Assembly (NCBI RefSeq): GCF_021347895.1
Contig: NC_067117.1
Location: 38,273,567 to 38,337,566, forward strand
Direction of reading: 5' to 3'
DNA length: 64,000 nt
Source: Acanthochromis polyacanthus
Lineage: Eukaryota; Chordata; Actinopteri; Pomacentridae
The notes beneath the pieces were generated by a model, which made no database searches, was not told the DNA's origin, and worked only from the letters and a program-made list of their open reading frames with translations. Numbering within the stretch: the stretch's first letter is position 1; every line of letters starts with the position of its first letter. A program made the position numbers and the translations under genes. Shown here piece by piece: positions 7,834-61,500 of this stretch.

Positions 7834-10800
7834 TTAGGAAGCCTTGCCCAGTTCTATCTTCTTCTGGATGGCACGAGCTGAGTGGTAGATGAGCGAGTCA
7901 ATGAGACCGGCCACTACAAGAGTCAGTGGACAGAATACAGGTGACAGGTGACAAGACAGTCAGAATTTGTCATTTTCAATTAACTACTCTTCAATATACA
8001 TTTCAGTGTTGTGTATAGTCAAAAACATGTTTAAATAGAGGGACTGACCTGTGAATACACCTCCAATAATGGCACAAACTCCTGTTAGGAAGTGTGTGAA
8101 TGATCTGAACAAAGAGAAAGCATTATTTAGCAATGAAATACTCTAAAAAGCTACTTCTTTTTTGTAAAATGTAAATGTAACCTTACTTAATAAAATGTCT
8201 TGTATCATTGAAGAAACACACAAAAACGAGAGTAAAACATGATCACTACCACAATATATCTTTCTTCCTGACCTTTTCCCCCCATGACTTCAACTTTAGA
8301 AACATCACTGGTATCAGAACTCCACATTAACCTCTCACACTGGATACACTGGCACGCTTTACTTTTTCATTTAGGCACACCCAGTATTTTTCATGGCACA
8401 TTTTGGCATTAAAATACTGACTGCAAATGTGACTTTCTTTGTCTATTCCCACATACACTGGTAATTCTCAACACATGAAAATGATTCTACACAGGAATAA
8501 AGTTGCATGATCTGGAACTTTATGATAGCAAAGGGTAGCTCTTCCTTGGCTGTAGTATAGACCCCTTTCACATGACGTATGTATACTTAATTAGGCAGCT
8601 GCGCGCGCAGACCCCGTTCAAAACAAAGCCTGTTTACCTGGCCAAGGCGTGATATTGCAAGCACATATTACGCTAAATATGCCTTCTTGTTGTGCTGTCG
8701 GCTGTCAGAATCGTAGTAAAGCAGATGATATGGCAGCTGTGACAGCGACCAGGTGGAACTTGCTTTGTTACTGCGGCTAAACGTTTGGTTTACTTAATAC
8801 TGATTTCCGCGTTCTCCGGAGCAGTCGTTACGTTGATATCACAGTTCCTGCTGATATACCGGAGAAGCCCTGAGCCCATTAGCAGGACAGTGCAGTATGT
8901 CAAAGTAGTGCCTGATAACGCATTGAAGGATTACTTTAATACCCAACATGCCGAACCAGGCCAGCAACAACAGGACAGCACCACCATCTGCTGCATCCAA
9001 ACAGCAAGAGGCCGTGTCCGGCAGGCAGCAGGAGGCGGCTGTCAGCAGCGGCAGCCCCAAACAACAGCCGCCACCGCCTTCTCAAAGCAAGCCCATTGAT
9101 GCAGCCAAAGCCGAGACATGCAATTTCCTAAACGCTATCTTTCTGTTCTTGTTCAGGGAACTCCGAGACACCCCAGTCGTCAGACACTGGCTCATTAAAT
9201 TAAAGTGGAATGTGGAGGAGCTCCTGCACCGGGTCTGCACGCACATACCTTGTGTTAGTAAACACTGCAAGGGGTCTATATGTAGTGGTAAATGTCATTG
9301 TCATTTCTGACTCCTCACTGCTACACTTTGGGGCTGATTGGTAGTAAAATACTGTGGGAAGATCACATCACACAATGAGGTTCGTGGAGACCTTTTTATT
9401 TTTGAACATTTCACTTTCACTGCCAGTGCTCCAACAGTAAAAACTCTCCAGCTGGGCTATAGCCCCATTATTTGCCTTAAATGCAATGTGTAAAGTTGGC
9501 AGTTTCATCATATCAAAGCGTTTGACACAAGCTGCAAATTTACTTGTGGTGGTGGACGACGTGGCATGATCAGTGTGCATGCAGAAACTTTGCAGTTTAG
9601 AGGGGGGGAGTGTAGTTCAGGCTTTTGTCTGTATCTACAATTCACAGCTGTCCTCCAAAACACTTCACATTCCATGCAGACTGTCAGTAGACAACAGATG
9701 TGGCCAAAAGTTAGTTTGAAAAGAGAGAAATAAGGCCCAGAGACACACAAACAGACTTGCTACATTGACAGTACTGTCGCATCAGACTTGACAGATTTTT
9801 GTTTGGAATCTTGAGTTGTAACTAGCCTGTAAATTTGCATTAGAGAAGGCTCAGTTGCATAATATGCATTTCCACCTATGTCTGGATGATAATTCAGGAT
9901 TATCATTTTCCCACTTTCATTACAATCCTGTCATGATGACTACCAATTTGCAAAATTTATGCTGTTTAATATGTAGTATAGTGACTTTTACAGTGATATA
10001 TATCAGTCCTGGAAAATGCTCTGGTGACTGGTGATTTATGGTTTATTATTCAGCCCTGTTTGGAATGATGGTTCAGCAGCAAAAAAAGAGATAGATTTAA
10101 GTTAAAAAGGACAGCTGTATTTATAACAAAAGAATAAATATTAACTTTGACAGACTACCTATCTATTTCCTCATGCAAATTTACCAACTCTCAGTCTAAA
10201 AACGTGATAGTCGTGGTCTACAGACTGTGTGTGACTTACTGTCACAACCTACCTGTGTTTCTCTGTGAATTTAACCATCATGGGTGACAGTTCATATAGA
10301 ACAAAGACACCCGGCAGCCCCTGGTCTCCTATTAGTCCATTGGCCACTTTCTCGTGCCTGGTGACTGAGAACTGGTTCGTTTTTACCACCTGGAAAAACA
10401 AAAACCAGAATTGTAAAATAAAATCTGGGGTCATTATTAAGAAAAACACTAAGGAAACACCTGTTCTGATTCATGATAAATACCCTACTAAAACCATGTA
10501 AAAATGAATAATTTTGAAATGAAGAGGTTAAAATTTTCTCTCCTTTCAACAAACTCCGTTTCTAGAAGCAACAATCAAATATCACCCCAGAGGTAAATTT
10601 GAAGAACAAAAATTGGACTCACTTCGCCGTCAGTTTTCATGTAGATGGTTGGAACAATTTTCACAAAGTACTGGTACATCATTGATGCTGTCAGGAGAGA
10701 TTTGGTTAAAATATCAGTGTTGACGCACATACTTAAAGAGATGAAAGCAAAACCCCTAAAGTCTAAAATGTATATTATTATGTACATCCATACATTTAGC

Positions 10801-49234: not shown

Positions 49235-49240
49235 CAGAAG

Positions 49241-49315
49241 TACGGAAGCGTATTGCTGCCACTCTATATAAACAAAAATTGATCATTTATATTGTAAAAA
49301 CATGATAATTATATT
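49241..49315 (+). repeat. Left terminal inverted repeat
   Basis: Starts TACGGAAGCGTATTGCTGCC and matches the reverse complement of 59843-59917 at 71 of 75 positions; the four differences are transitions. The inner part contains one copy of the unit that is expanded as a minisatellite at the right end. Confidence 0.85.
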
Positions 49316-49624
49316 CAGTGGTGTAGTCTAGTTTTTTTCTAGTGGGTATAGACCCCTTTCACATGACGTATGCATACTTAATTAGGCAGCTGCACGTGCA
49401 GACCCGGTGCAAAACAAAGCCTGTTTACCTGGCCAACGCCTGATATTGCAAGCTCGAATAGGTGTTTTTATATAAATATAAATATGCCTTCTTGTTGTGC
49501 TGTCGGCTGTCAGAATCGCAGTACAGACAACCCTCATTTAAAATTTTATTCAATACTTGGAGGTAGGGTTGCCACCCGTCCCGTAAAATACGGAATCGTC
49601 CTTTATTTGACAATTAATCGTTGC

Positions 49625-49649
49625 GTCCCGTATTGACGCAATACGGGAC
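49625..49649. repeat. Perfect 11-bp hairpin
   Basis: GTCCCGTATTG, loop ACG, then the exact inverse. It lies in a repeat-like insert (from about 49567) in the first THAP intron. Confidence 0.7.
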
Positions 49650-50989
49650 TCAATTTGTTCCGTATTTTCATAAATGTATCATAAACGTCTGTCACACAGT
49701 CATCAAAAATGTATAATGAATAAAATAAAACACAGGAAATATTAAGGACAGCCAATTTCATCTTAGTAGAACCTACGAGGACCTGACGTGACATACAGTG
49801 GATAGACCTCAGAAGCCAGTGTCGTCTTTGTTTGCCTGCCTGCACGGTCCTGTCACAAGTTGCTAGTTACAGACTGCTGCGCGCTGCACCAGGGCATTTA
49901 AAAATGTCTAACCCCGAAGCTCCACCACATCCTCCTAAGAAACGCAAACGTCTGCAGATGTACAGATGTGAGTGGCTACGTGCGATCAACTGGGATAATC
50001 GGTCGGAGGCACAAATAAAGAATGCATGGCTTTGCAGTGCACATTTCATTTCAGGTAAACGGTCATTCAATTTTGATTTACATTTGTAAAATCCTTTAAA
50101 ATCATGGAAATGTTACATCACCCAATATAAAAATTAGATATGTAGAGAAAAGATCCCGTGGATAGTGCTTTATCATTATCGTGCATGTGAGCGATAATAG
50201 GGTGTTTTGTCATTACCGCAATGAATATGTTTGTTGACTTAGCCTTGTTATTTTGTTTTACGGGACTTTAATAATTATAATAAATACAATTTTAACAGGT
50301 CGTGCATCTGACGATTCAGACAGTCCTGATTTCGTGCCTTCAGTATTTCCTCACAGGCGTGACAGTGCCAACAGCACCAAAGCTAAGAACAAAATTGACA
50401 GGTAATTTGTACACTCGCACCACATTTCTGATACTGGATGGTATGTGAGTTCTTGTACGTGACCGCAAAGCACTAAATTAACAGCATCAAGGAATTTGTT
50501 AGTGATGTTACGCTCGAGCCAGTTTGCTCGACACAGTGCCGAGCTTTTGAAGCCAAAGTGTTCCGAGGCGGTGTTTCGATCCCTGCTTCAGCATGCCCAC
50601 AATCACGTGACTATCGAGAACGAGGCCTCGTTACGTCACATCGCGTGTCGTGGTGCTTCGAGCAAACTTTGAAGGGGTTGGACATTTCAATCTGTCCAGG
50701 TCTTAAAAGGCATAGGGGTCTGATTCACTCCTCAAATTGTGGGTTTTTGAGAGGAGGAGATTACGCTAGTGCATTTGGCATTTGTCATTTTGAGAGAAGT
50801 TAGGGAGAGTATACATTTAGTTAGAATTTAGTTTAGATATATCTAGTTGCATTTCATACATTAAATAACACACAGATACATACGCATAGATTCACTCATA
50901 CACAACACACATTCATTCATAGAAACACACTACACATATATGCACACAAACATACATATATAACGTTTTAAAACATTTATTGCAAGTAC

Positions 50990-52174
50990 AAAACAGTGTG
51001 AGACAAGCAGTCTCTCTGGCCGCACTCAGTTCATTCAGTTGAAAACATTCACATCCCATTTATCTCCCGTCTCCTCCGGTGTTCCCCAAGGCTCTGTTCT
51101 TGGTCCCGTCCTCTTCATCATTTATCTTCTTCCCCTTGGCCATATATTCCGGAAATATAACATACAGTTTCATTGCTATGCGGACGACACCCAGCTCTAC
51201 TTCTCCTCCAAACCCACTTCCACCCTCCCCCCCACCTCCCTCTGTGTCTGTCTCCAGGAAATCAAATCCTGGTTCTCTTCCAATTTCCTCAAACTGAATA
51301 GCGACAAAACTGAGGTTCTCCTCATTGGTTCCAAATCAGTTCTCACTACAACCAATAGTTTCACCATCACCATTGACAACTCCACCTTTTCTCCCTCCCT
51401 GCAGGTCAAGAGTCTGGGTGTCGTCCTCGATGGCACTCTGTCATTTCAAACTCACATCAACAACATCACCCGATCTGCATACTTTCATCTCCGTAACATT
51501 AATCGCCTCCGTCCCTCCCTCACTCCTGTCAGCACCGCCATCCTGGTCCACTCTCTTGTCACCTCCCGCCTCGACTATTGTAATTCACTTCTCTCTGGTC
51601 TTCCACTCAAGTCCCTCCATTAACTCCAATTGGTCCAAAATGCATCAGCCCGAATTATCACCAGGACACCCTCTTTCCACCACATCACCCCAGTTCTCCA
51701 ACAGTTTCACTGGCTTCCAATCACTCACCGTATCATCTATAAAATCATTCTGCTAACCTTCAAGGCCCTCCATAACCTCGCCCCTCCGTACCTCACTGAT
51801 CTACTCCATATAAACACACCCAGCCGGACTCTTAGATCATCTTCCTCTCTCAGTCTCACCATCCCCCCTGCCCGCATGACCACCATGGGCTCCAGAGCCT
51901 TCAGTCGCGCTGCTCCCCGCCTCTGGAACTCCCTCCCACCTGATATCAGAAACATCAATACACTACACATTTTCAAATCCACTCTCAAAACCCACCTGTT
52001 CAAACTAGCTTACTCTCTTTGACCTCCAGTCCTCCTTCTGTTTTAAAATTGCTAAATTTTCTTTTTTAAATTTTAAAATTCTTATGTTTTAAACTGTGTA
52101 TTTTGAATCTGTTTTTATTCTGTTTCCTCTGTACGGTGACCTTGAGTGTCTTGAAAGGCGCCTATAAATAAAAT

Positions 52175-52212
<38 letters not shown>
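50990..52212 (+). mobile_element. 5'-truncated L2-like LINE
   Basis: Reverse-transcriptase fingers and palm: [20 protein letters not shown], the catalytic [14 protein letters not shown], then the C-terminal region with PRLWNSLPPDIRNI. One in-frame TAA (51620-51622) breaks an otherwise open frame of about 330 codons. The tail GAAAGGCGCCTATAAATAAA ends in (ATT)n at 52174-52212. It is in an intron of the THAP/HECT gene and stops about 16 bp before the HECT exon acceptor. Confidence 0.85.
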
Positions 52213-52213
<1 letters not shown>

Positions 52214-53593
52214 TGATGTATTTTCAGATACTGAGGTGGTGTTTGGCCCTTCCCTTGGAGATCCTACAGACAGCCAACTGGATGACACGTTGATACATGA
52301 TCCAGATCTGCAGTTTGTCAATAACGAACCAGTCATCACATTCAGCACTCTTCCTCCAACATGCACAGCAGACAATCCTCCGGAGGCAGCATTTGTAAGT
52401 GATGCAGCAAGCACCTCTACAGCATCATATGAAGTTGTCACTATCACCATAAAACTTCATAGGGTTAACCTGCTGGAGGAGATGATCAGCCAGTTCAAAG
52501 ATGCAAGACTCCTCAAACACCCTCTGAAATACACTTACATTGATGAAAAAGGAGCCGATGCAGACGGTGTCTCAAGAGATGTGTACGCTGCATTTTGGGC
52601 AGAGTTCATGGAGCACACAGCAGAAGGAGAGGACCTAAGGGTTCCATTGCTGTCTCCTAAATGGCAGGAAGAAGAATGGAAATCCATCAGCCTAATTCTG
52701 CTGAAAGGCTTCAAAGACCACGAGTATTTTCCATGTCGTCTTGCCCCTGTTTTCACTGTGGCACTAATTTTTGGTGAGGGTGCAGTCACAGATGGAATGC
52801 TCTACGAGAGTCTTCTTCAGTTCATAAGTCAGTCAGATAGGGATCTGATAACCACCGCCTTAACAGAAGATCTTGTAGGTGAGGACAGGGATGAACGACT
52901 TGATCTTTTGGACCGCTTGGATGTAACAGTGCTTCCAACACAAACAAATTTGAAAGGCATCCTTCTGAAAGTGGCACACAAGCAGCTAATCCAAAAGCCA
53001 AGAAAAAATGTCATTGATCACTGGTCAGTTCTTAAAAGATGCATTTGTGAGTCCACAAGATGTCTTAAGAATGTATGAGGATAAAAAGCCAACAACAAGA
53101 AAGTTTTTGAAATTGTTGGATGCATCTCCAACAACTCAAGCAGAGAACCAGAGCTTTCGTTTTCTGCAGCAGTACATCAGGGGTCTGGATGATACAGGAC
53201 TCAGAAGGCTGTTAAGGTTTCTCACAGGGTCAGATATCTGTGTTAACAAGATCAAGGTCCTGTTCACACCAACAGTTGGATTGGCACGACGACCAGTAGC
53301 ACATACCTGTGGGCCGGTTCTGGAGCTGCCATGGACATATACTGTCTACCCCGAACTACGTATTGAAATGGACAATATACTGGCTTCTGAGAGCTCCTTC
53401 AACTTTAGCATAGTTTAAGTTGGTTCATCTTGTAGGGCACCAAGACATAGAATGACAATGATTGATAGGTGCATTGGATGTACTGTTTAGATCTTTTGAG
53501 TATTTTCTATCCGCTATCCATGAGTCAGCTCTTTTGAGAAATTATTTGTTAAACAAAAATTAGTTAAAAGTCAAAATTCTGTTGAGTTTCTTA

Positions 53594-54349
53594 GGGTGCT
53601 TTCACGCCTACGCCGTTTGGTCCGCTTAAAGCGGACTGGAGTCCGCAACACCTGCAAGTACGGTTTGTTTGGGCTGGTGTGAAAGCAGACCAGATATTTT
53701 TGGTTCAGACTAAAGAACCGGACCGAGACCACCTCCCGAAGGTGGTCTCGGTCCGCTTCTATGTGAACTCCAGTTCGGTTCGCTCCTGGTGAGAACACAA
53801 ACCTGTCTCCATTCGGACCAGCTTGATGGCGCAGCAGACTTTTTGGTTTACGGGAGCTTCCGTAGCAACCTGCACGGAGAATTTTGGGATAACGATAATG
53901 TCTTGCAATGCATCTTCTCCGTGCCAAAAACGACTGTGTAATGTTCTCGTACCGAATGCGAGCTTCATGCTGGAACAACAGCAGTATTTGTGCTTGCTGC
54001 ATAAAGCAATGATACGAATATATGGCAACACGAACGAACAGGAGAGCATAGTTCATTGTTTACGAATAAACCTCGATCCATGGAATAAACACAGCCTGTT
54101 GTTTTCTTCCGGGATTTTTCCCTCTTCACATCCTGCGCCAATCAGCGTTCACCTACGTCATCTAAAACACCTTATTTTTGTGAACAGCGCCCCCAAACGA
54201 CTGGGGGGAGATATAACATTCATCGTAGTTGGTTCAACTGCGAAAACACTGGTGTGAATGCGAACTGAACCAGTTGAAAATAGCAACATTGTAACAACTT
54301 CTGGGTCCAAACGAACCACTCTAACGGACTAACAGGTGTGAAAGCACCC
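53594..54349. mobile_element. Harbinger-like MITE
   Basis: TTA on both sides (53591-53593, 54350-54352) and inverted ends GGGTGCTTTCACGCC and AGGTGTGAAAGCACCC. A 3-bp TTA/TAA duplication is typical of PIF/Harbinger. It contains a perfect 16-bp hairpin (53719-53734 with 53740-53755, loop CCCGA). No transposase frame is recognised. Confidence 0.8.
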
Positions 54350-54352
54350 TTA

Positions 54353-55770
54353 GCTGTGAGTTGTGCTCTGTTACAGTAAAGTAAATAAACAAATTTGAGG
54401 ACATAATTTTTTTTTTGGACACACAAAGACAATCAACATTTACACTATTTTCTGTTATTTTGGACCAAACAAGTAATTGATTAATCATTTGGTTATAATT
54501 TGCTAATGATTGTAATTTACAGCTCTAGCTGACTGTTTTGTTTCTGAAGGGACTTTTGGACATTTAGTTTTACCTGTTGGGATAATGGTTATCAAGTATG
54601 TTGAAGCAGTTATTTGAATGTGTAAAACAAACAAACACACTAAATACACAACTCTTTTATTTTGTGCCTAGGTTGTTCAAAACAGGCCTGCCCCCTTTTA
54701 ATGCTCTTTCCTGTTTAATAATTCCCTTGAGTTGTAATGTGATGATTTGTTTTTTCAACTGCTGTTTTTATGAAGTTTGTTTGTCAAGTTTTACTGGTTA
54801 GAACTGACTTTTACAACAGCATGTGGTTTTAGGGTACTTTAGTCAATGTCAGACATCACTCTGTTGCATCGTGATGGCTGCTTTACATGTTCTTAAGGCA
54901 TTTGGAAACTGGAAATAAATGCACAGTTGTGTCTTTTCAGGAATCAGAATCCCTCTGCTTTCTTCACCACAACTGCAAGTAATGACAAAGAATGTATTTT
55001 ACTTCTATGTTATTTATTCTCACATAACACACATAATACATTTTTTCTCACATTTTAAATTACGACAGGAAATAACTAATATTTGTATTTCACAACGTCA
55101 CGTTAATCTATTAGTTCAGATCCTTTACCTAAATAAAAGTACTAATACCAGTCTGAAAATAATTACTCAACCACAAATTTCATTCAGAACCTTAAATGCT
55201 AAAGTAAAAGTGTGTAAATTAAATTAAAAGTAGTCATTCTAAACAAAAGTAGTGTGGTGTGAAGTTGAGAAGAAAAAGGACAATATTTGTCTCCATGCAA
55301 AGTATATGGATATTATATAAATTTGAAGTGTAAGTGCAAGTACCTACAAATTATACTTACGTACACTGTAAATCATTGTTACAGTGTGTGGCTTCTTTGT
55401 GTGGCATGCCAGAAAAATGTTTGGAAACAATTGCCATAGGTGAATAAGAGGCAAATGGCGGGGCGTTAGTCTTAATGCATTGTCCCTTCTATGTGGATCC
55501 ATCACAGGCTCAGCTTTTTGGGTACGAAGGGGTCTTCTCCTGATGAGCAGGGCACAGTACAACATTAACTCAACTGCCATGTGAGGCTAAGCATTTACTT
55601 CAGAGACATGGCCCAACTCTGATAGTTTTAAGTGAACAGAGTACAGGGATGGCAAAATACTTTGGTGTGAAAAGTTACAGTGCAGTGTGAAAAACAATGT
55701 TTAAAAGTAACCAGAGCATCAGCTGACACAAAGCACCCCTGCCTCAATGCTCCAGACCTATTGGAATGAT
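54353..55770. other. Spacer between the two convergent element genes
   Basis: No coding exon recognised. It should contain the 3' UTRs of the HECT gene (plus) and the integrase gene (minus). Confidence 0.4.
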
Positions 55771-56000
55771 TTATATTTGTCTTAGTATGTATTCTCTCAG
55801 GAAGAGATAGAGCTCAACAGCTTCATCTGCAGTGGTGGGTGGAAGTAAGAAGTTCTCTGCCATTATAAGGCAACACAAGCTGAAAACAGTTTCATCACAA
55901 GGATAAGGTCCTCTCTGTTGGCATTCTTCTTTGCACATGTCCACTGCTTCCTGGGAGACCTCTTTCAGGTGATCTTGAACTCCAAATAGATGAGGGATAT

Positions 56001-56676
56001 TGTGGGAAATGGTGTGTTTTATAATTTACTAAGTGTGCATATTAAAGAGTTGCATTGGTTCTGAGGAATAGGAAGGTCAAGAGCATCATTACCACGGTGT
56101 GACTGTAATGAAACAAAGAAGATAAGTCCAGCTTTATTTTACTTATTACTCATGTGATTGAAACCAAGGATGATCAAGACATAAAGTGACTGATAATCAA
56201 AGTACAGACAGTTTTTGATAATAAAGGTACAGATAGTTTATGACGTAAGCCATAATCAGTAAAGAACATGAGCTTGTTGTGTGTGCAGTCTCTAATCTTG
56301 CTTTGCAGCGGTGAAGTCATTCCTACGTGAGCGATAATGACAAAACGTCTGCTGTGAAAGAGGAGAGCAGACCAACGCAGCAGCGGAAGGGGCAGCCAGC
56401 CTAGATAGATAGCTATACACACTGTTAGAGTATAAGAAGACTGGGTCAGGAACAGTTAGCAGTCTGATTCCATCCGAACTGACTGAACACTTGTTGATGG
56501 TTAGGGACAGAGGATTCAGGCCCAGAGCTCTGTATCGCACATTCAATTTTGCTGTAATAAATACTTTTGATTTTAAGAAGAAGTCTCCTGACTACTCCAT
56601 CAAAAGAACTGGACGGAAACAGCCTTACACATATTCTGTTGGTTTGTTTAATTGTAGGATAGGCTGATTTCCAACA
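56001..56676 (+). mobile_element. Solo LTR inside integrase exon 2
   Basis: 676 bp with imperfect inverted ends TGTGGGAAAT and ATTTCCAACA (TG...CA) and a 4-bp duplication ATAT at 55997-56000 and 56677-56680. On the plus strand there is a TATA-like motif (about 56435) and AATAAA (about 56555), in the order expected for U3-R-U5. No internal retroelement genes remain. Retroviral or Gypsy type cannot be told apart. Confidence 0.8.
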
Positions 56677-57194
56677 ATATTGTACATGACAATTGGACGT
56701 CCACTTGGAGTGACTGCATTTCTGCTGTTGTGGATTATGTGTGTATTCCACATATGTGCAACCTGCTGCAGCTCTTTCTGTAGAGAAAAAATACCAGATA
56801 AAACAAATATTAATGTAATACTTGGCATTTTCAGTAAGTATACATGCAGTCATATGCTCTCTAATGGCCAAAAGAGCTGATTTGACAGTGGAAATGAAGC
56901 CTTTTTTGCCATGTCTTTAATGTGAGCTTTATCATAGCCAAACGTAATATTCCTAACATACCCAGAATTAACCAGGAATATCCTCGATAAGCATGTTTTG
57001 ATTGTCCTTTGTTATAGGAAGCTAAGGAGTTCACTTCCACAGTAGATAAATCTAATGTGGCCTCAAACTTTTATCCATCTATCTTAATTAAATGTATATG
57101 AATAAATAGCATTACATGCCTGAGGAAGAATATGTATTGTTTATTTTCAGGTGAACTGTCCTTTTTATTGTTTTGTTTATCTTTTTTTCATTTT

Positions 57195-57345
57195 TTCTAT
57201 GCCTTTATTTGGTTGGGAACTTAAACATATGACAGGAAATGGGAAGGGACAGTGACGCAAAGGGCCAGAGGCAGGGGTTGAAACCACTGCCACAGCAGAG
57301 GACTTACAGCCTCAACATGTGGGGCAAAGTGCCCAAGAGCAATTT
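57195..57345 (+). repeat. Possible SINE-like fish repeat fragment
   Basis: Contains 'ggttgaaaccactgccacag' and 'gaggacttacagcctcaaca', resembling a B-box-containing repeat frequent in fish. Short and diverged. In the integrase intron. Confidence 0.3.
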
Positions 57346-57584
57346 GTCCCTTTAGTGAAAAATACAATTTTATTCTCATCCAGGATAAAAACTAAATTTT
57401 AAAGGAAATATCATGTTTTTAAGTAAGAATCTACAAATAATTTTGTAACTACGGTACCTGCTCCTGCTCCTTGGCTATAACTATAACCATAAATCTGATG
57501 AAAAAAATATGTGTTGTATGATAATACAGATATGCTCAGGGATTCTCTATGTTTTGGCCATATTTATGTTGGTTGTTACTAACT

Positions 57585-58015
57585 TGAGATGAGAAAGAAA
57601 GAAAGATGGAGAAAAATGAAAATAAAAGAGGAGTTGGAGCAAGGGAAAGAATAAAGGAACAGAAAAGCAAGAAGAATACTGATAGGGGAGATAAGAGGAT
57701 AAAATAAACAGAAAATAAGTCAGAATAAAGGGTTAAGAGGGACATGAAAATGAGACAAGAAAAGAGGGATGGAAGAAGGAGTGGACAGCATAGCATAGCA
57801 GGGACAGAAGAAAAGAGCGGTGAAGGTGGAAAGGAGGGATTAAAGATGAAAAGATAAAATTAAAGGAAGGAAGAAGGAAACTAATTCAAGAGGAGGAGGA
57901 AACAAGGTAGAAAAGGGATGGAAGTGGAAGAAGAGGGGCAAAGAATGCAGGGAAAAGGCGAGGGAGGAGGATAAGACAATGATGAAAAGAAGGACGAGAG
58001 CATGATTTGATGAGG
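57585..58015. repeat. Polypurine tract
   Basis: About 430 bp in which the plus strand is overwhelmingly A and G in irregular GA/GGA/AAG runs. In the integrase intron. Confidence 0.85.
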
Positions 58016-59038
58016 AAAGAATCATATTATGGATGCATGTGTTTGCGTGCGTGTGTATGGCACAGGTACATGGAGAGATATACATGCAGGGCTGAATAAG
58101 AGAATAGGAACCTAAGAGAACAGGAATAGGAACAGGAAATACAAACCTCGATGATGTTCAAACAAGTAAACAAAGGAAGCTGCTTGTCCAAGAAGTCTCC
58201 AGAGAAACTGTCATTGTCCTTTAGTTCCTGAAGACGATTCATCCAGGACTGGGCATGATGACTTCTCAAAAAAGCCTACCAGCTTTCGATGCGCTGATTG
58301 TGGTTACTGGTGCCAGAAACATAAGAGTTATTGACTTGACGGTCCGTACTCCATCGTAGAAATCTCTGCATCTGTGCAATTGTGACATTTTCTGTTCCCA
58401 GATCTGCGTGGACTCTGGCAGCTGTCCCCATCCTCTCCTCAACTTCTGCTAAGAAATAACCAGCAATTATCTTAGGGTTGCTGTTTGTTGAGTATGCATG
58501 AAGTCACACGATGAGTCTCGAAAAGCCATCAATGGCTCCATTTATACAAATACCAAACGGTTTCAGCTTGTCGTAGGAGTCAACATGCCACATATAGTTA
58601 GGCCCAGGGTTGACGTACATACGTCGCATCAGGCGATTCCTCCGTCTTTGTTCAACACCATGGGGGTCCAGAAACTTCAATAAAAGCCTCACGATGCTTT
58701 GGGTCACAACATACCCAGCCTGGATGCAATTGAGATGGTGTCGCTTGTATCCGTGGTGCCTGCCATACCCTTAAAGCTGATCAATGAGAAATGATGCTAC
58801 TTCCAGGGGGTCAGACTGATTCTTCCTTCTGTACAGTCCCATGCGCTTTAAAATTCTTCGTAGCATGCGCATACTTATCACAATGCCATCAACCATGCTC
58901 AGTAACAAGAGAATCTCACCATGCCTCATTCCAAGCATGAAGTACAACTTGATTAAGTCACTTAAATGAGCCATTTCTTCCACTTATTTGATCCCCTTCA
59001 CACTGTTTCATCGCTTCTTCATTGCATGTGTTTCACAT

Positions 59039-59880
59039 TTTTGCAATATAATTATCACGTTTTTACAATATAATTATCATGTTTTTACAATATAATTATC
59101 ACGCTTTTACAATATAATTATCAAGTTTTTACAATATAATTATCACGTTTTTACAATATAAATTATCACATTTTTACAATATAATTATCACGTTTTTACA
59201 ATATAAATTATCACGTTTTTACAATATAATTATCACGTTTTTACAATATAAATTATCACATTTTTACAATATAATTATCACGTTTTTACAATATAATTAT
59301 CATGTTTTTACAATATAAATTATCACATTTTTACAATATAATTATCATGTTTTTACAATATAATTATCACGTTTTTACAATATAATTATCACGTTTTACA
59401 ATATAAATTATCACATTTTTACAATATAATTATCACGTTTTTACAATATAATTATCATGTTTTTACAATATAATTATCACGCTTTTACAATATAATTATC
59501 AAGTTTTTACAATATAATTATCACGTTTTTACAATATAAATTATCACATTTTTACAATATAATTATCACGTTTTTACAATATAAATTATCACGTTTTTAC
59601 AATATAATTATCACGTTTTTACAATATAAATTATCACATTTTTACAATATAATTATCACGTTTTTACAATATAAATTATCACGTTTTTACAATATAATTA
59701 TCACGTTTTTACAATATAAATTATCACGTTTTTACAATATAATTATCATGTTTTTGCAAAACAATTATCACGTTTTCACAATATAAATTATCACGTTTTT
59801 ACAATTATCACGTTTTTACAATATAAATTATCACGTTTTTACAATATAATTATCACGTTTTTACAATATAAATGATCAAT
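59039..59880. repeat. 22/23-bp minisatellite with higher-order structure
   Basis: About 37 tandem copies of a unit like ACAATATAATTATCACGTTT plus TT, alternating with a 23-bp variant (TATAAATTATC). A block marked by the rare variants CACGCTTTT then CAAGTTTTT occurs at 59100 and again 378 bp later at 59478. The last unit runs into the right terminal inverted repeat. No spacers, so it is not a CRISPR array. Confidence 0.95.
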
Positions 59881-59917
59881 TTTTATTTACATAGAGTGGC
59901 AGCAATACGCTTCCATA
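59843..59917 (-). repeat. Right terminal inverted repeat
   Basis: Partner of 49241-49315. It ends ...GCAATACGCTTCCATA and is followed directly by CAGAAG. Confidence 0.85.
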
Positions 59918-59994
59918 CAGAAGCCTCTTTATATAAAGTCTAAGACTATTATTAATAGTTAATTAATATTAATATTAATTAATAATTAATAGTC

Positions 59995-61500
59995 ACTTCC
60001 CTTCCAGCACCTGTATCCGTCTCTGTCACAGAGACAGGGGTAATGTTAGAGCTTCAAAGACTTTGCTCTGGGAAGGCAGCTGGCCCAGATGGTGTCTGTC
60101 CAAGACTGCTTAAAGACTGTGCTGCACAACTGTGTCAACCTCTCCACAGGATCTTCAAGCTGAGTCTACAGCTGGGGCGGGTGCCTGCTCTATGGAAAAC
60201 ATCCTGTATTGTACCAGTACCAAAAATCAAATGTCCGGCTGAACTAAATGACTACAGACCTATTGCTCTGACCTCACACATCATGAAAACTCTGGAGTGG
60301 CTAATTCTACGCCTGCTGAGGCTTGAGGTCAAAGACAAACTGGATTCCCTGCAGTTTGCATACAAAGAACACACTGGAGTGGATGATGCCATCCTCTTCA
60401 TGCTTCACCGTGCCCTGTCTCATCTGGAGGAACCTGGAGTTTATGTGAGAATCATGTTCTTTGATTTTTCAAATGCATTCAACTCCATCCAACCCACCAT
60501 CCTGAAAGACAATCTCACAGAGATGGGAGTGGATCCTTCCTGTGTATCTTGGATCACAGATTACCTGACAAGAAGAACACAGTTTGTCAGGCTGGGGAAC
60601 TGGGACATTAATGAGCAGTACTGGGGCTCCACAAGGAACAGTCCTGGCTCCATTCCTGTTCACTCTGTATACATCTGACTTCAAATACAGCACTGAGTCC
60701 TGCCACATTCAGAAATACTCTGATGACACTACTATCGTGGCATGTATCAGAAATGGACATGAAGCTGAATACAGAGATCTGATAAGTGCCTTCAGTGACT
60801 GGAGTCACAAAAACTGCCTGCTACTCAACGCCTCAAAGACAAAGGAAATGATCATCGATTTCCGCAGATCCAAACCCCCTCTTCAGCCAGTGAACACTTG
60901 TGGAGTGGACATCGAGGTGGTGACATCATATAAATATTTAGGTGTCCACCTTGAAAATAAGTTGGACTGGTCTACAAACGTAGACTTCATCTACAAAAAG
61001 GGCCAGAGCCGACTTTGCCTCAGAAGACTTCGATCTTTAGACATCTGCAGTAAGATGCTGCAGATGTTTTATCAGTCTGTGGTAGCAAGTGTCCTGTTTT
61101 ATGCTGCAGTCTGCTGGGGAGGCAGTATAAAGAACAAGGATGCAAGGCATCTGAACAAACTGATTATAAAAGCTGGCTCTGTGGTTGGAATCACATTGAA
61201 CACATTGGAGGATGAGGTGGAGAGACGGGCACTGAGCAAGATGGAGGACATTCTGACAAACATGGATCATCCACTTCACATTTGCCTCAATGAACAACGT
61301 AACATCAGTGGACAACTCCTATCCCTGCTCTGCAGGACAGAAAGATTCAGAAAATCTTTCTTGCCATCAGCAGTCAGGCTATTCAATTCAAAATTAAACA
61401 GATAAGAACCCTGACAATTGAATTTCCCTTCGGGGCTGAATAAAGTGATTCTATTCTATTCTATTCTATTCTATTCTATTCTATTCTATTCTATTCGTTT
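59995..61500 (+). mobile_element. 5'-truncated Rex1-like LINE
   Basis: Reverse transcriptase from RRY-like finger motifs onwards: SGKAAGPDGVCPRLLKDC, LNDYRPIALTSHIMKTLEW, FFDFSNAFNSIQP, then after a frameshift near 60590 GAPQGTVLAPFLFTLYTSDF and KYSDDTTIVA (the YxDD site), KYLGVHLENKLDW and the C-terminal region ending SAVRLFNSKLNR. The 3' end TTTCCCTTCGGGGCTGAATA is followed by (ATTCT)n at about 61452-61496, as in Rex1. Outside and beside the right end of the large element. Confidence 0.88.

Follow-up and report, generated by a model that had tools for sequence, protein, structure and literature searches.

A decayed fish DNA transposon, very probably of the IS3EU/GingerRoot type, in which a transposase gene faces a predicted HECT ubiquitin ligase gene

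The 10.7-kb unit at positions 49241-59917 of the window (the whole 64,000-nt stretch of Acanthochromis polyacanthus DNA that was analysed) is very probably a decayed, nested copy of an IS3EU/GingerRoot-type DNA transposon that moves by cut-and-paste and has two genes, an assessment that covers both its identity and its two-gene make-up. Both genes are broken in this copy. Across diverged families of the transposon in the same genome, the HECT ligase gene stays with the transposase gene. The superfamily itself was already known; this conserved partner of the transposase was found in none of the literature searched. The features of the unit and its flanks are as follows.

49235..49240, no strand: left target-site duplication, CAGAAG
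49241..49315, plus strand: left terminal inverted repeat, beginning TACGG
49316..52209, no strand: stretch foreign to the transposon, holding THAP exons and a LINE-like fragment and replacing the first HECT exons
52215..53003, plus strand: HECT gene remnant, linker and N-lobe
52996..53418, plus strand: HECT gene remnant past a frameshift, C-lobe with the AHTC cysteine
53594..54349, no strand: nested MITE (TTA duplication); the sister copy shows the empty site
55774..56025, minus strand: transposase exon 3, followed by a TAA stop (tblastn match to intact relatives)
56652..56783, minus strand: transposase exon 2 (tblastn match to intact relatives)
58145..58983, minus strand: transposase exon 1, holding the D, D and E residues, with 3 in-frame stops
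59033..59871, no strand: subterminal tandem array, 22-23-bp units, about 38 copies
59843..59917, minus strand: right terminal inverted repeat, finishing CCATA
59918..59923, no strand: right target-site duplication, CAGAAG

The earlier note on this DNA had described 75-bp inverted ends flanked by CAGAAG on both sides, and these were confirmed at 49241 and 59917: 71 of the 75 bases pair, all 4 mismatches are transitions, and the chance of such a pairing is approximately 1e-35 per pair compared. The array beside the right end and the nested MITE were both absent from that note. The array units and the inner portion of the inverted repeat have sequence in common, and similar subterminal arrays are present in a second (sister) copy in the same genome, which is flanked by the duplication GAAATG.

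Further copies with paired ends and 6-bp duplications were sought in the source genome and were found. A search with a 16-base end pattern gave 13 genome matches, 12 of which were the ends of seven two-ended elements, while a reversed-pattern control gave 0; single ends lying away from the genes, the case that the earlier note had named against its own reading, were thus not the rule. Of 8 elements with both ends, 7 have matching 6-bp duplications, the exception being the C4 copy in family 2; the duplication of the C13 copy (ATATAA) sits within an AT run. Ends of the form TA..TA were found in the window element (TACGG..CCATA), the sister copy, family 2 and family 3. The genome also harbours a young 7.0-kb family, with coding parts 99.0-99.9% alike, as well as diverged families of the transposon.

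The D,D,E integrase gene reported previously was recovered on the minus strand. Pfam rva_4 matched two pieces of the window transposase, one of them 0.1 bit below the cut-off, and the catalytic codons lie at 58579-58581 (D), 58402-58404 (D) and 58285-58287 (E). These residues are invariant in all 26 aligned transposases, in which the first catalytic D is residue 132 and is preceded by no invariant Cys and by a sole invariant His, H130. The fold resembles those of IstA, TnsB, MuA and retroviral integrases; by sequence, a profile of the transposases had no match among solved structures. The three stops in exon 1 break the gene in the window.

The HECT gene of the window has one frameshift and lacks its first exons, and its Pfam HECT match scored 24.2 bits (cut-off 23.9). 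The active-site Cys codon is still present (53308-53310, plus strand). The protein comprises a helical head, a linker and the HECT domain; a Pfam search with the head and linker gave no match. Foldseek with a model of the protein (mean pLDDT 69.1) matched HECT domains over 300-377 columns (best E 1.4e-06), the neighbours being HECT domains of the UBR5, HUWE1 and NEDD4 type. By modelled fold and AHTC cysteine, this transposon-borne protein is of the HECT E3 type, and ubiquitin transfer is predicted. The proposal of a DNA element carrying both an integrase and a ubiquitin ligase has therefore been borne out in its true ends, its 6-bp duplication and both genes.

The association of the two genes was followed across loci. 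A HECT gene was present within the first 1.5-kb flanks in only 1 of 30 loci, because the two genes stand further apart where flanks were extended. Among loci read far enough, the integrase gene faces the HECT gene in 13 of 15; in the other two (L031 and L033), HECT is missing from the surrounding 8 kb. Pairwise distances of transposase and HECT are correlated (r = 0.94, 14 pairs). Between near copies, dN/dS of HECT was 0.45-0.73, apart from one value of 1.31 (11 changes), and recent selection is therefore weak or absent.

The HECT ligase probably serves the element. The alternative, that a host gene was captured once and has since travelled passively as a passenger, without serving the element, is unlikely, although it would accommodate the two loci lacking HECT and the near-copy dN/dS of 0.45-1.31. 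Against the passenger explanation, the facing arrangement of HECT and transposase persists across families with less than 50% residue identity in the transposase, all 28 aligned HECT proteins have the active-site cysteine, and between families the dN of HECT is 0.37-0.65 even though dS is saturated.

In the proposed mechanism, the transposase would bind the ends, and perhaps the subterminal arrays as well, excise the element and make a 6-bp staggered join at its target. If the HECT ligase does serve the element, it would load ubiquitin onto the AHTC cysteine and mark a nuclear protein, whose change would aid the element. A host silencing or repair factor is a possible target and our first choice; the transposase complex itself is the second choice and a doubtful one. 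Tentatively, animal IS3EU elements may be two-protein transposons, in which a mobile HECT ligase, retained through deep divergence, works in the transposition cycle by destroying or remodelling a target in the nucleus, be it a host factor for defence or repair or the transposase complex once it is spent; the ligase would then be a second subunit in role and not cargo.

Polintons generate 6-bp target duplications, while those of Ginger elements are 4 bp. A decayed Polinton or Ginger element would account for the integrase-type core and, in the case of Polintons, for the 6-bp duplications, but this origin is very improbable, as the ends are TA..TA, the Ginger duplication length differs, and the open frames of a complete relative of 7042 bp, inspected visually and compared with HECT proteins by tblastn, show transposase and HECT exons only. 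The last result agrees with the earlier observation that no Polinton replication or capsid genes are visible. In the available part of the published account, IS3EU/GingerRoot is likewise set apart from Ginger1, Ginger2 and Polinton, without statistical support (PMC10045372). The same part gives as marks of IS3EU/GingerRoot TA..TA ends, a target duplication that is usually 6 bp, and a transposase with no HHCC zinc motif ahead of the catalytic core and its first D 100-300 residues in (PMC10045372). By its fit to these published marks (ends, duplication, lack of HHCC and D position), which were compared by description, the element very probably belongs to this known superfamily. The suggestion in the earlier note of a possibly undescribed family was thus mostly superseded, but the HECT partner was not found in the literature searched.

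That note had also described a THAP plus HECT gene converging on the integrase gene; the plus-strand HECT gene does face the minus-strand integrase gene, but the sister copy has no counterpart of the region that holds the THAP exons, and these exons are not part of the HECT gene. A single THAP-HECT gene of the element is scarcely credible: both parts are on the plus strand and inside the ends, with the THAP exons upstream of the HECT exon, but neither the sister copy, which has the first HECT exons in place of 49316-52209, nor the complete young element has a THAP match, the region upstream of the THAP exons recurs outside the element, none of 3 database THAP matches has HECT, and of 129 HECT relatives, the 120 that were listed bear no THAP label. 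Judged from these sequence comparisons, the THAP piece is foreign to the transposon and probably comes from another repeat. The THAP-HECT fusion was accordingly rejected, no relative with both domains in one protein being found.

Beyond this genome, viral contigs were scanned with a piece of the window transposase and with the transposase and HECT alignments, and no relative was confirmed. One scan of prokaryotic genome contigs confirmed one relative, which has 30% identity and sits on a contig of 3.9 kb from a myxobacterial metagenome bin. In the literature searched, a scope that left Repbase entries and the GingerRoot paper outside, no HECT partner of IS3EU or of any other DNA transposon was found. 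One fish genome thus holds young, near-identical two-gene copies of a DNA transposon with its own ubiquitin ligase, and a simple assay in cells could put the element to the test. As fungal members pair an alpha-kinase with the transposase, according to the available part of their description (PMC12730594), pairing of an integrase-type transposase with an enzyme that modifies proteins may be a recurrent feature of the superfamily; this makes it possible to test which host component an element of this sort has to modify.

The transposon HECT protein shares the HECT fold and the AHTC active-site motif with the HECT E3 ubiquitin ligases NEDD4L, HUWE1 and UBR5, but is approximately 12-17% identical to solved HECT domains, and differs from these ligases in being encoded inside a transposon and in having a helical head without a Pfam match. 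With Polinton/Maverick elements, the transposon has in common an integrase-type core and a 6-bp duplication, but its ends are TA..TA and no replication or capsid genes were seen in the complete 7.0-kb relative. With IS3EU/GingerRoot it shares TA..TA ends, the 6-bp duplication and an integrase-type transposase without HHCC, whereas the HECT partner of the fish element is absent from the available part of the published description (PMC10045372). Fungal IS3EU elements, as far as the accessible part of their description extends, have the same TAYGG..CCRTA ends, a 6-bp duplication and a second enzyme gene opposite in orientation to the transposase; in the fungi this second gene encodes an alpha-kinase and is separated from the transposase gene by a TET/JBP gene (PMC12730594), whereas in the fish element it encodes a HECT ligase.

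The inverted ends of the window element, at 49241 and 59917, were paired at 71 of 75 positions, with every mismatch a transition (chance about 1.5e-35 per comparison, taking a match rate of 0.27), and CAGAAG lay directly outside both. These ends and flanks, as well as the convergent D,D,E integrase and HECT genes described in the earlier note, were re-found in the sequence, which also holds a nested MITE:

58983 down to 55774, minus strand: integrase-type transposase gene, facing the HECT gene
52215 to 53418, plus strand: HECT gene, facing the integrase gene
53591-54352: nested MITE, 756 bp with inverted ends, flanked by two TTA copies

A Pfam scan of ten pieces of the window left six unmatched. 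The rva_4 profile was matched by two pieces (7.9e-09 for one; 25.9 bits, 9.2e-06, below the cut-off of 26, for the other), HECT by one (3.1e-05, 24.2 bits, above the cut-off of 23.9) and THAP by one (0.0028, 18.8 bits, below the cut-off of 23.9). The element is decayed: three stops break integrase exon 1, and the HECT reading frame is shifted near 53000. Approximately 600 bp (56026-56651) separate transposase exons 2 and 3, which are continuous in the young family; this gap is probably another nested insertion. Open frames resembling LINE reverse-transcriptase fragments were seen by eye at 51039-52022, within the element, and at 60043-60678, just past its right end.

A search of the 957-Mb assembly, where the window occupies C5:38273567-38337566, with the left end of the window element located a second two-ended copy (C5:37112945-37138060), flanked by GAAATG on both sides and 92-96% identical to the window element over the longer shared stretches. 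This sister copy (examined as L009-L011, C5:37112500-37138600) is swollen to 25.1 kb because Gypsy-like and LINE-like elements, judged by eye from open frames, have inserted. Its empty site for the window MITE, which we take to be probably Harbinger-like, carries a single TTA. The first HECT exons are present in the sister copy and absent from the window element; the last transposase exons are present in the window element and absent from the sister copy.

The earlier note had also read THAP and HECT as a single gene, which was not borne out. Window positions 49316-52209 had no match in the sister copy, and neither that copy nor the complete young element on C1 gave a credible THAP match. The region upstream of the THAP frame, with its start (49346-49526), recurs outside the element at 8555-8721 with 84.5% identity. 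A database search with the THAP part as the scored region found three proteins, none of which carried HECT; one combined THAP with a DDE_Tnp_4 transposase domain. Of the 129 HECT relatives found, the best 120 carried no THAP label; a crude C2CH pattern matched one of these (P0118, residue 131). On these sequence comparisons, the THAP stretch is therefore a foreign piece in the window element.

The transposase search of the genome gave 117 matches, with 101 of 343 candidates scored. The end pattern TAYGGAAGCGTATTGC occurred 13 times (reversed-pattern control, 0), and 12 of these matches were ends of seven two-ended elements of families 1 (window element and sister copy) and 2, so the occurrences are mostly paired rather than single ends. 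The thirteenth, on C13, adjoins a short, 37%-identical transposase match and probably represents an old remnant. Family 2 comprises five loci, 99.0-99.9% identical over approximately 2.4 kb starting upstream of the transposase; its HECT protein is 99.3% identical to P0095 (Acanthochromis polyacanthus LOC110966885). No matching duplication was found for its C4 copy. The other copies and the diverged family 3 were as follows:

Family 2, C1: complete, 7042 bp; duplication GGATGA
C1 copy, 295-1179 and 1422-1745: transposase exons, no stops
C1 copy, 5555-5445, 5094-4930 and 4889-3120, opposite strand to the transposase: HECT exons; the last is open for 590 residues
Family 2, C13: duplication ATATAA, within an AT run
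Family 2, C12: duplication CACTTT
Family 2, C22: duplication GGGTAT
Family 3, C1:68278463-68285154: starts TACGG; 72-nt inverted repeat at 93%; GAAAAT on both sides

The family 3 transposase, with one stop, is 45% identical to that of the window, and HECT identity between family 3 and families 1 and 2 is 37-41%.

Tandem arrays adjoin the ends, with a unit length that varies by family:

Family 1: 22-23 bp
Family 2: 24 bp
Family 3: 21 bp, left end only
Locus L020: 21 bp

The array of L022 has 3.4 units only, and L027 has no subterminal array. The left arrays of family 2 (L014-L018) hold 4-9 unit motifs despite the 99.0-99.9% identity of the neighbouring coding stretch, and arrays therefore change fast. 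They are candidate transposase-binding sites.

Residues D132, D191 and E230 were invariant in all 26 aligned transposases, and the transposase model (mean pLDDT 87.4) matched IstA, TnsB, MuA and retroviral integrases. A transposase relative with 30% identity was seen at L058 (1725-2303), on a short contig binned as myxobacterial in a metagenome, and may be contamination. The HECT cysteine was conserved in each of the 28 aligned proteins; the active-site motif is SHTC in L022 and L023. A profile of these 28 proteins gave weak sequence matches to solved HECT domains (best NEDD4L, 2.8e-05). The HECT model (mean pLDDT 69.1, pTM 0.51; loop 616-639 below 50) had 68 matches at E <= 0.001, the best 50 of which included UBR5, HUWE1 and NEDD4-type HECT domains. 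Its predicted N-terminal helical bundle looks SAM-like and had no Pfam match.

HECT was found in the 1.5-kb flanks of one (L029) of 30 loci, three of which were the window or sister copy. When 4 kb more was examined beside ten loci selected for long transposase matches, a facing HECT gene was present at eight; L031 and L033 had none there or in a further 4 kb (8 kb downstream). Overall, 13 of 15 loci had a facing HECT (the ten, the window, the sister copy, family 2 on C1 and C13, and family 3, chosen since HECT had already been seen there). Transposase and HECT distances were correlated over 14 pairs (r = 0.94, inflated by close relatives; 0 of 5000 permutations as high). Two of the pairs, one from Mugilogobius and one on a 632,383-bp contig, come from other fish and were matched by consecutive locus tags or equal contig size rather than by DNA reading. 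For the three family pairs, synonymous sites were saturated; dN was 0.37, 0.60 and 0.65 for HECT and, in the transposase, 0.28, 0.54 and 0.47, which argues for constraint on both putative proteins over the long term. Among near copies, dN/dS of HECT was 0.45-0.73 in five comparisons, with a sixth at 1.31 that rests on 11 changes; the transposase gave five values of 0.21-0.79 and one of 1.68. Recent selection is therefore weak or not visible. The HECT relatives P0070, P0076, P0082, P0085 and P0108 are assigned by name to molluscs, a sea star and a hemichordate, and thus the gene type extends beyond fish.

Beyond the ends, duplications, catalytic residues, predicted folds and gene pairing documented here, we infer that the transposase would excise and join the element, and that the HECT protein would transfer ubiquitin, acting on a nuclear target whose change benefits the element. 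For this target, the first choice would be a host silencing or repair factor, and the second the transposase complex.

No HECT partner for IS3EU was found in the literature searched, at listing level; one may be recorded in Repbase or the GingerRoot paper. In the portions of PMC12730594 available, fungal IS3EU ends are given as TAYGG..CCRTA, and fungal IS3EU with TET/JBP has an alpha-kinase gene oriented opposite to the transposase. The corresponding portions of PMC10045372 group IS3EU with GingerRoot at 99% bootstrap, and describe complete IS3EU families as always having TA..TA ends and usually 6-bp duplications. The window element carries these marks of IS3EU/GingerRoot, as published in those portions, in both its ends and its 6-bp duplication.
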